Source: an uncultured Armatimonadota bacterium
Lineage (GTDB): Bacteria; Armatimonadota; Armatimonadia; Armatimonadales; Armatimonadaceae
Reading direction: 5' to 3'
DNA length: 51,715 nt
NCBI GenBank assembly: GCA_903910385.1
Contig: CAIVZM010000009.1
Coordinates: 1-51,715, forward strand
The notes beneath the pieces were generated by a model, which made no database searches, was not told the origin of the DNA, and worked only from the letters and a program-made list of their open reading frames with translations. The position numbers were made by a program, and so were the translations under genes. Shown here piece by piece: positions 19,570 through 22,331 of this stretch (position 1 is the stretch's first letter; every line of letters starts with the position of its first letter).

Positions 19570-20394
19570 TCATGTCCTGCCGGAGCTTCGTTCTCCCTGA
19601 CGAATGGCTTCATAGACTAACGCCCCGGCGGCGACGGTAACATTCAGGGAATCCGCGCCATTGGGAGCCATAGGCAGGCGCAAATAAATGTCCGCCAGAG
19701 CTTGCGTTTCAACAGTGACTCCGGTCTGTTCATTACCGACGACGATTACCAACGGGCGTGATGATAGATCTGCATCAAAAGCAGTCATCGGAGCCTGACC
19801 TGAGGAAACCGCGATTGTCGTTCCCTGTCGCTGTAGCGTGCGCAATGCCTCAGGCAAATCGGGAGCCAGATGGAGTGGAACACGCAGAATCGATCCTGTC
19901 GTAGACCGAACCGCCTGCCGGGAGAATGGTTCCGCGGAATCCGACGAAAGAATCAGACCGGCGCAACCGGCGGCATCCGCCGTACGGATCAGGACACCTA
20001 CATTACGAGGGTCTTGAATCTTTTCGCCACAGAGAATCAGGGGGCGCGCTTTCGACAACAACGATTCCAGCGGAGATAACTGTTGACCGATCACTGCGAC
20101 CGCAGTGACTGCAGTGTCGTAACCCGTGCCTACCAGTTTGGAAAGCAGACCACCACTCGCTATATAGAGAGGAACATTCCGAGCGGCGCATAACGATTCC
20201 AGATCGGCGACCGCTTCAGGCGACACAAAAACAGCGAAAATCGGCGTTGTGTCAGGTGAGGATGTCAGCGCCTGACGCACCATATCCGCATCTTCGACCA
20301 GATACCGACCGGAAGCGATTCTTCCACCCGCACGCGTCAGGCTTAAGGCATCCCGAAATGCCGGATGCTTGATGCCTCCCAGAGCTTCTTTCAA
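19570..20394 (-). CDS. SpoU/TrmH family RNA 2'-O-methyltransferase
   Basis: This 274-residue enzyme has an N-terminal substrate-binding domain (GGRIASGRYLVEDADMV) and the SPOUT knot motifs: DPRNVGVLIRTADAAGCAG (motif 1 with the catalytic-site Asn and Arg), VIVVGNEQTGV (motif 2) and LNVTVAAGALVYEA (motif 3). It methylates a ribose in rRNA or tRNA with S-adenosylmethionine; which site cannot be told. The only reasonable start is a TTG at 20394, which lies 17 bases after the stop of a small upstream gene with GAGGA in between, suggesting coupled translation. Confidence 0.92.
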   Translation of the reverse strand: MKEALGGIKHPAFRDALSLTRAGGRIASGRYLVEDADMVRQALTSSPDTTPIFAVFVSPEAVADLESLCAARNVPLYIASGGLLSKLVGTGYDTAVTAVAVIGQQLSPLESLLSKARPLILCGEKIQDPRNVGVLIRTADAAGCAGLILSSDSAEPFSRQAVRSTTGSILRVPLHLAPDLPEALRTLQRQGTTIAVSSGQAPMTAFDADLSSRPLVIVVGNEQTGVTVETQALADIYLRLPMAPNGADSLNVTVAAGALVYEAIRQGERSSGRT

Positions 20395-20410: not shown

Positions 20411-20665
20411 TCAACAAGCGAACGCCATATGAATCGCAGGTTTTTGATCGATCCAGACGAGATGAATTAGTTTAGTGAAGCCCGAATGTAATGCCCGCCG
20501 TTCCGCCATAGCGAAGTACTGTTCGGCGCGAGCTTCATTGCCCACTTCTTCTGCGAATCGCGCCTCGGAAATTAAACAAGACACCGTGAACAAGGCAATT
20601 TCAAAAGAGACATTCCGTGTCGCTTGATTCTCGTTAGGCGTCTCTTTTATTGGTGGAGCAGACAT
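20411..20665 (-). CDS. Small hypothetical protein
   Basis: An 84-residue soluble protein with a helical central stretch (FEIALFTVSCLISEARFAEE to EARAEQYFAMAERRALHSG) that resembles a single TPR-like helical pair. It directly precedes the RNA methyltransferase, with only 16 bases between, so the two are likely one operon. A weak GGAAA ribosome site is present. No family recognised. Confidence 0.6.
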   Translation of the reverse strand: MSAPPIKETPNENQATRNVSFEIALFTVSCLISEARFAEEVGNEARAEQYFAMAERRALHSGFTKLIHLVWIDQKPAIHMAFAC

Positions 20666-20955
20666 TCAAAATTTCCTATAACGGCGACAATCATCAATCT
20701 CCTCTGGATCATCGAGCCGAAGTTTTGAAAGCTCAAATCAACACTTAGCCACCTAAGTAAGATTTGTTGCTTTCGAAACTAATATACCCAGAAAATGACC
20801 GTTTAACTCACTCAGCATTGATTTAATCAATTGATTAACAATTTAAGAAACGTAACTCTCTCCGCCGGAGTTCCCGCTCAAAGCGTGGAATGAAAAATTA
20901 AGGGTCCTACTTGCCGAGTCGAGCGGAATCGGTTATACTTCCGGAAACGAACGAT

Positions 20956-21117
20956 ATGGAAACGCTTTCTACCTCCATCCTGGAAATCAACTCTATCCCG
21001 ACCAAACTGAGCGGGAATGGTTTCTGGCGCGTGAGCGTCCGTGCCGTGCGTTATTATTTTAACTATCTCTTTTTCTGGTTTTACTACGCCGAGCCGGGCG
21101 CAGGAGGCCGATCCTAA
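20956..21117 (+). CDS. Aromatic attenuator leader peptide upstream of DAHP synthase
   Basis: A 53-codon open frame that ends just before a Rho-independent terminator. Residues 33-44 (YYFNYLFFWFYY) contain ten aromatic residues out of twelve, covering Phe, Tyr and Trp. Such runs are the sensor of ribosome-mediated attenuation in genes for aromatic amino acid synthesis. A ribosome stalled for lack of charged tRNA-Phe, -Tyr or -Trp would free the segment 21093-21104 to pair with the terminator 5' arm and let transcription enter the DAHP synthase gene. The start ATG has a modest GGAAA upstream; a later start cannot be excluded. Confidence 0.8.
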   Translation: METLSTSILEINSIPTKLSGNGFWRVSVRAVRYYFNYLFFWFYYAEPGAGGRS

Positions 21118-21195
21118 CGAACGCGCTAAACCAAGCGCCAAAATAAGGAAAAGCGACCTGCCCGGGCTACACGCCGGGCGGGTCGTTTTGTTTTT
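21093..21195 (+). promoter_or_regulatory. Transcription attenuator of DAHP synthase gene
   Basis: The terminator stem CGACCTGCCCGG (21154-21165) pairs with CCGGGCGGGTCG (21174-21185) and is followed by TTTTGTTTTT. The upstream segment GCCGGGCGCAGG (21093-21104) can pair with the 5' arm of that stem (GCAGG with CCTGC plus nearby C/G pairs) as an antiterminator. A small extra hairpin GCGCT/AGCGC lies near 21,123-21,138. The aromatic codons end at 21087, just before the antiterminator segment, which is the geometry expected for leader-peptide control. Confidence 0.8.
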
Positions 21196-21224
21196 GTGGG
21201 ATTTGATCCGATGGAGCGAAACTG

Positions 21225-22331
21225 ATGCTAACCGCCGAACTTTCAACGACAATCAACCAGCCATCGCCGAAAATAGATGATACTTTTAGCGATACCACTC
21301 CTTCTGCCGTCAATGTGACGACGGAACGCTTACCAACGCCCCATGAACTCAAACTTGAATTCCCATTGACACTGCGGGGGGTAAAAGCGATACAGGAAGG
21401 ACGGGACCTGATCCGTCGTATCCTGAGACGCGAAGACCAGCGCTTACTTGTAGTAGTAGGCCCCTGCTCCCTCCATGATCCGGATTCGGCTATCGAATAC
21501 GCCCGGCGGTTAGTGGAGTTGCAGGAAACATGTCGCGATAAGGTAGTCCTGGTCATGCGCGCATATCTGGAAAAGCCACGAACCACAATCGGTTGGCGAG
21601 GCTATCTGAACGATCCCAATCTGGATGGGTCATGCGATATGATCGAAGGGCTTCGTCAGTCGCGACGTTTACTGACCGCGCTTGCAGACTGCGGCATACC
21701 GCTCGCCACCGAACTTCTTGATATCGCCGCTTCCGCCTACTACTCCGATTTGATCTCCTTTGCGGCTATCGGGGCTCGCACCGCCGAGTCGCAACCTCAT
21801 CGCGCCCTTGTGTCGGGTCTGGACATTCCGGCGGGATTCAAAAACGGCACGGACGGTTGCCTTGCTACAGCGATCAATGGGATTCTTGCCGCCGCACAGG
21901 GGCATGCCTACTTCGGTCTTGGTGAGGATGGTCAAGCCTGTATCATGCGCACTCACGGCAATTCGGACACGTTGATGATTTTACGCGGAGGACGTGGCGG
22001 CCCGAATTACGATGCCGTTGAGGTAGCGAAGGCGGAAGAGGAAATGAAACTCTGCGGGTTGCTACCTACTCTGATGGTGGATTGTAGCCATGCGAACTCC
22101 GGATCCAATCCAGATCGTCAAATGGATGTTTGTGATAACGTCATTTCGCAACGGCGCGATGGGAATCAGTCTCTGGTCAGCGTCATGATTGAAAGCCACC
22201 TCCATGCGGGAAAGCAAACGCTCAACGCCGATGCGATTCGCTCCGGGCTAAGATATGGCGTCTCCGTGACTGATGCGTGTGTGGATTGGGACTCGACACA
22301 GACAATGATTTCCCGACTCGCCGCCGGTTAG
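21225..22331 (+). CDS. 3-deoxy-7-phosphoheptulonate (DAHP) synthase, AroF/G/H type
   Basis: This 368-residue type I-alpha enzyme condenses phosphoenolpyruvate and erythrose 4-phosphate in the first step of the shikimate pathway. Visible landmarks are VVGPCSLHDPDSAIEYA with the metal-binding Cys, MRAYLEKPRTTIGWRG for PEP binding, GARTAESQPHR, PAGFKNGTDG, LRGGRGGPNYD and MVDCSHANS. Length and N-terminal regulatory segment match the feedback-sensitive E. coli isozymes. ATG 21225 has GGAG 8 bases upstream. It is preceded by an aromatic leader-peptide attenuator, so expression should follow aromatic amino acid supply. Confidence 0.96.
   Translation: MLTAELSTTINQPSPKIDDTFSDTTPSAVNVTTERLPTPHELKLEFPLTLRGVKAIQEGRDLIRRILRREDQRLLVVVGPCSLHDPDSAIEYARRLVELQETCRDKVVLVMRAYLEKPRTTIGWRGYLNDPNLDGSCDMIEGLRQSRRLLTALADCGIPLATELLDIAASAYYSDLISFAAIGARTAESQPHRALVSGLDIPAGFKNGTDGCLATAINGILAAAQGHAYFGLGEDGQACIMRTHGNSDTLMILRGGRGGPNYDAVEVAKAEEEMKLCGLLPTLMVDCSHANSGSNPDRQMDVCDNVISQRRDGNQSLVSVMIESHLHAGKQTLNADAIRSGLRYGVSVTDACVDWDSTQTMISRLAAG

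Follow-up and report, generated by a model that had tools for sequence, protein, structure and literature searches.

What controls the DAHP synthase gene at positions 21225-22331 (plus strand) of the window, i.e., the whole stretch of 51,715 nucleotides analysed here, which is contig 9 of the 84 contigs of a 4.47-Mb genome of an uncultured Armatimonadota bacterium (G000), is the question raised by a short, strongly aromatic open reading frame (ORF) and an intrinsic terminator directly in front of it. The initial annotation had called the gene a DAHP synthase, and its product indeed belongs to the AroFGH type (type I) of 3-deoxy-7-phosphoheptulonate synthases, with 419.3 bits against NCBIfam aroFGH TIGR00034 (cut-off 173.2), a further score above cut-off for NCBIfam NF009395 and a Pfam match to PF00793. 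Taking it for the sole DAHP synthase of G000 would be wrong, since a second, B. subtilis-type isozyme is encoded on contig C7 (88115-88885; L132).

According to the ORF list and its translations, the proposed leader peptide ORF occupies 20956-21117 (plus strand; 53 codons plus TAA, with an ATG start) and has METLSTSILEINSIPTKLSGNGFWRVSVRAVRYYFNYLFFWFYYAEPGAGGRS as its product. Its codons 33-44 (21052-21087, plus strand), the putative sensor codons, read YYFNYLFFWFYY and contain 10 aromatic residues out of 12 (5 Tyr, 4 Phe, and 1 Trp, the last at codon 41, W41); the frame and run described in the initial annotation were recovered with the same coordinates and counts. Such a run might be a product of chance beside an ordinary terminator, and frames with 6-7 aromatic residues out of 12 do arise by chance in the window. 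However, 10 out of 12 is unique among the 71,111 stop-free 12-codon stretches in the six frames of the whole window, where all those with 8 or more sit on the leader run and the maximum elsewhere is 7. In 586 kb of fetched loci, that of the window included, the loci with at least 8 out of 12 lead, with one exception, to a DAHP synthase leader. The arrangement is also found in front of the orthologous gene in five further genomes, and by this recurrence in four genera coincidence can, on sequence comparison, be regarded as already refuted, its probability being negligible.

The surroundings of the ORF are those of a transcribed leader that may be terminated early. A sigma-70-like promoter (TTGCCG-17-TATACT; 20911-20939, plus strand) was picked up by a consensus scan with a score of 9/12, which alone is not significant; the leader ATG follows 16 nt after the end of its -10 box TATACT, which would make the 5' UTR very short, and the Shine-Dalgarno sequence of the leader ORF is weak or absent. 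An intrinsic terminator hairpin of 16 pairs (-30.6 kcal/mol) follows at 21150-21189 (plus strand), with GTTTTTG directly 3' of it and a T-rich tail to approximately 21195. It starts 32 nt past the leader stop codon; with GCGACC taken as the beginning of the stem, the distance becomes 36 nt, as originally given for this GC-rich terminator. Only about 35 nt separate the terminator from the ATG of the DAHP synthase gene. Since the upstream ORFs at 19570-20394 and 20411-20665 are both on the minus strand, the terminator does not close any nearby plus-strand gene. The upstream neighbour in the window is an RNA methyltransferase gene on the minus strand, and the 84-codon frame at 20411-20665 (minus strand), between that gene and the leader region, has no match in Pfam or NCBIfam.

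Inside the leader ORF, directly behind the aromatic codons, a segment at 21093-21109 (plus strand; segment 2) mimics the terminator 3' arm and is the candidate antiterminator. In G000 the predicted duplex of segment 2 with the terminator 5' arm has -18.4 kcal/mol compared to a shuffle mean of -13.7, a pairing that by itself is marginal (p 0.05 with dinucleotide shuffles, 0.13 with codon shuffles). The antiterminator that the initial annotation had placed behind the aromatic codons is thus present, although its pairing in this one leader is only marginal, and the weight for it comes from six leaders taken together (see below). The same annotation had proposed folding this region, and the fold of 20940-21200 is more stable than those of 200 dinucleotide shuffles (z -2.8). 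In the full-length fold of the G000 leader region, segment 2 pairs with upstream sequence.

Comparison within the family provides the context for this single locus. An AroFGH-type DAHP synthase occurs in 10 of the 12 genomes of the family, and in six of these ten, belonging to four genera (G000, G001, G005, G006, G007, and G009), the leader is present upstream in a common order: -10 box, short leader ORF, F/Y/W run, stop, terminator, DAHP synthase. The leader ORFs of the five relatives are in the same place as in G000, are 24-56 codons long and have 7-8 aromatic residues out of 12 in their runs. An intrinsic terminator lies between leader ORF and gene in all six genomes; in the five relatives it follows the leader stop after 15-33 nt with -14.5 to -29.4 kcal/mol. 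By eye, -10-like boxes (TATAGT, TATGAT/GATACAGT, TATATT) can be seen in these relatives some 10-20 nt upstream of the leader ATG. The leaders of G006, G005, and G009 read MSTSSTRIVNYGFYWQDGYFSFPWFPNVLERTAC, MAHPTNGYWYFSFYFFPNRDGAVV, and MARTNNSFWYFSFYFFPNREEAAL, respectively, and those of G007 and G001 include ...GLFWRQWLAFGYYFYQGQTRESGTNKTV and ...YPGFAFAYGYYYFPWQTPTPGAEATRR. Phe, Tyr, and Trp codons are each present in all six leaders. The comparison of related upstream regions suggested in the initial annotation revealed a frame rich in F/Y/W codons plus a terminator in six of the ten family genomes with the gene, and the five relatives possess both features rather than lacking them.

Outside the aromatic run the six leaders share little, with the exception of those of G005 and G009, which are of one genus. 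Such a lack of conservation beyond the run is expected for a sensor rather than for a protein. It bears on the possibility that the ORF is a gene for a small functional protein, aromatic and perhaps located in the membrane, whose own transcript would end at the terminator while the DAHP synthase is served by a separate promoter. The 53-codon ORF with its own promoter-like box and the hydrophobic character of the run fit such a protein, but leader length varies from 24 to 56 codons with little except the run in common, searches of Pfam and NCBIfam gave no match for the leader ORF, the ~35 nt between terminator and DAHP synthase ATG offer little room for a promoter, and there is a match between the terminator arm and the sequence following the run. 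We consider this protein very improbable. Even harder to credit is control of the terminator by a metabolite riboswitch or T-box, with the ORF being incidental. A terminator with an alternative pairing occurs in riboswitches too, but the six leaders have no apparent conserved aptamer-like sequence, their conserved element being the aromatic codon run. Rfam gave no match for the leader region among the T-box and riboswitch classes and no covariance model match at gathering score among the leader families (Trp_leader, Phe_leader, and others); at a permissive threshold only weak, chance matches appeared.

Between its last aromatic codon and its stop, each of the six leaders has sequence that is similar to the terminator 3' arm and able to form a duplex with the 5' arm. 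Compared to dinucleotide shuffles, this pairing of segment 2 with the 5' arm yielded single p values of 0.0005 to 0.26 and a combined p of 1.2e-6 over the six leaders; G005 and G009 are not fully independent, and by arithmetic the combined p without G009 is still <1e-4. With codon shuffles, the combined p for the six leaders is 2.8e-4. We also used a position model, in which the ribosome is placed at each codon and the free RNA is folded up to the terminator loop. Under this model, which uses equilibrium folding only and assumes a ribosome edge of 11-14 nt, sequestration of the terminator 5' arm would amount to 0.52-0.85 with the ribosome near the end of the run and to 0.01-0.27 once it has reached the stop codon. 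In each of the six leaders the modelled sequestration starts to drop no more than about four codons away from the last aromatic codon, and wherever in the run the ribosome stalls, even at the lone W41 of G000, the antiterminator would remain free. Tested against shuffles, the positional effect has a combined p of 4e-4, with three of the six leaders individually <0.05 and G000 alone at 0.21. A placement by which a stalled ribosome frees and a passing ribosome masks the antiterminator is thus found over the six leaders together and is marginal for G000 alone; as modelled, this position-dependent pairing is the geometry that attenuation needs. The trp leader has a clear protector hairpin. Compared with that of E. 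coli trp, the leader studied here folds in the model without a protector hairpin, the antiterminator also forming when no ribosome is near segment 2, so that an untranslated leader would read through.

Considering the parts and their order, the conservation in four genera, the pairing and its dependence on ribosome position, the best explanation is a ribosome-mediated transcription attenuator of DAHP synthase of the leader-peptide type, which we regard as very likely. The minus-strand orientation of the upstream neighbours and the Trp-only leaders of trpE (see below) also speak for it. Points against it are the marginal antiterminator of G000 taken alone, the missing protector hairpin in the model, the poor Shine-Dalgarno sequence, the leaderless genes of genus g5 and the non-significant positional test on the trpE leaders (both below). 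The parts, their order, their conservation and their potential to pair are established at the level of sequence. From them we infer where transcription starts, that the leader is translated, that ribosomes stall and polymerase reads through, and that each of the amino acids has an effect, as follows. RNA polymerase would start near 20946, and a ribosome would translate the leader ORF behind it. A shortage of charged tRNA-Phe, tRNA-Tyr, or tRNA-Trp would make this ribosome stall in codons 33-44, and the segment at approximately 21093-21109 would then capture the terminator 5' arm as soon as it is synthesized. With its 5' arm paired the terminator could not form, and the DAHP synthase would be transcribed. 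If none of the three is in short supply, the ribosome would reach the stop codon and cover segment 2; the terminator would then form and transcription would end before 21225. The attenuator proposed in the initial annotation has, therefore, gained support from the anatomy of the locus, including the -10 box, from its conservation in four genera and from the position-dependent antiterminator.

A narrower form of the same explanation is that the attenuator answers mainly to one amino acid, e.g., Phe or Tyr. This is a serious possibility, although we rate it somewhat below an even chance. The run of G000 has a single Trp codon, and AroR of Corynebacterium glutamicum contains F-Y-F, yet Tyr is without effect there. 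On the other hand, F, Y, and W are all kept in the six leaders, and in the model a stall even at W41 leaves the antiterminator free. Judging from codon content, a true response to all three amino acids (Phe, Tyr, and Trp) has about an even chance.

The leader-bearing genomes resemble each other in a further respect, as all six also carry the B. subtilis-type DAHP synthase above the family cut-off, so that the attenuated enzyme is one of two isozymes. In a further genus of the family (g5; four genomes), the AroFGH-type gene is present, neither a leader nor a terminator lies upstream of it, and none of the four genomes has a B. subtilis-type enzyme above cut-off. We read this co-occurrence of leader and second isozyme as a pattern and nothing beyond it, given the small number of genomes and given that one group consists of a single genus. 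The DAHP synthase gene of g5 lies closely behind another ORF. At all four loci (L002, L003, L005, and L013) a small ORF overlaps the DAHP synthase start (TTATGAG), and a hairpin, GATGCCG-TAT-CGGCATC, occurs ahead of the ribosome-binding region, an arrangement that possibly reflects translational coupling. In the phylum as a whole, 79 of 291 genomes have a matching DAHP synthase gene, and a comparable leader was absent upstream in the 21 loci read from other families. With six family genomes carrying the leader and none of these 21 loci doing so, it characterizes some members of one family.

Attenuation of a DAHP synthase gene by an aromatic leader peptide is in itself known. Experimental work on C. 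glutamicum (Neshat et al., 2014, as cited in PMC11802643; also PMC4046766) demonstrated that AroR, with its F-Y-F, attenuates aroF, which encodes DAHP synthase, with a response to Phe and none to Tyr. The two systems share an aromatic leader peptide and attenuation directly before the DAHP synthase gene; they differ in that AroR has only F-Y-F whereas the leaders described here, from another phylum, have 7-10 aromatic codons with F, Y, and W. For aroF of Acholeplasma, the uORFC-13-1 motif, i.e., a uORF plus intrinsic terminator ahead of the DAHP synthase gene, has been predicted (PMC8632094); it is similar in these parts, but has a poly-U run coding for at least one Phe, and a mixed F/Y/W run is not described there. 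The same paper mentions an older hypothesis of this kind for E. coli aroF (PMC8632094). The trp and pheA/pheST leaders of enterobacteria follow the same logic of sensor codons, antiterminator, terminator and gene, but sense a single amino acid and serve a terminal branch or a synthetase. For a long time, reports of leader-peptide attenuation came exclusively from Proteobacteria and Actinobacteria; a Firmicutes case was added later (PMC2965389), and in the open-access literature we found no report of it for Armatimonadota. The novelty that the initial annotation had claimed for DAHP synthase consequently has to be narrowed: such control is already known from C. glutamicum and predicted for Acholeplasma, so that only its occurrence in this phylum and the density of the mixed F/Y/W run are new.

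An alignment-query scan placed the best matches outside the family mostly in Proteobacteria. At seven Pseudomonas DAHP synthase loci (L019, L022, L026, L031, L054, L059, and L068) there is an upstream ORF that ends in an aromatic run, then a terminator, and Salinicola (L045) has a similar arrangement. The runs at the ends of these Pseudomonas ORFs are FYFGYWF-like and contain F, Y, and W, FYFGYWFSHRRR and GYFFYGYWFSQRRA being examples, and between terminator and gene there is another ORF with aromatic residues (MNYATYHRYPSFTAWRFS.., RYYRYDWRFS..). The order of ORF, run, terminator and DAHP synthase gene is, therefore, like that in the Armatimonadota, but the leader sequence is unrelated, there is the extra ORF, and segment 2 pairing in the Pseudomonas and Salinicola leaders was not significant. 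In the three of the seven Pseudomonas loci that were scanned, Rfam RF00627 ("P15 sRNA") matches the leader stretch and overlaps the aromatic-run ORF (L019 2097-2218; L031 2156-2276; L068 2076-2196). P15 is probably the attenuated leader of the DAHP synthase gene and not an independent sRNA, a statement that we did not find in the part of the literature covered.

A second aromatic locus of the same genomes is trpE, which in G000, G005, G006, and G009 is preceded by a leader with WWW and a terminator (L114 (G000:C48), L116, L117, and L118), the runs being ..GLWWWREEI, ..VQWWWRTGACPVRAVC and similar. Since the ribosome-position test on these four leaders was not significant, only the WWW run and the terminator are claimed for trpE. 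No leader with terminator was detected, at the thresholds used, before pheA, leuA, ilvB, or the second, B. subtilis-type DAHP synthase gene. The F/Y/W leader of DAHP synthase and the WWW leader of trpE together suggest a mixed sensor at the common first step and a Trp sensor at the Trp branch. We tentatively propose, with a likelihood only slightly under even, that one leader integrates the three aromatics so that any shortage would open the common pathway, with a Trp-only leader at trpE and an independent origin of the arrangement in Pseudomonas. In one family of the Armatimonadota, attenuation would operate both at DAHP synthase and at trpE, two loci of the aromatic pathway, and its mixed and Trp-only leaders would offer a clean natural comparison for the question of whether one leader can report three amino acids.
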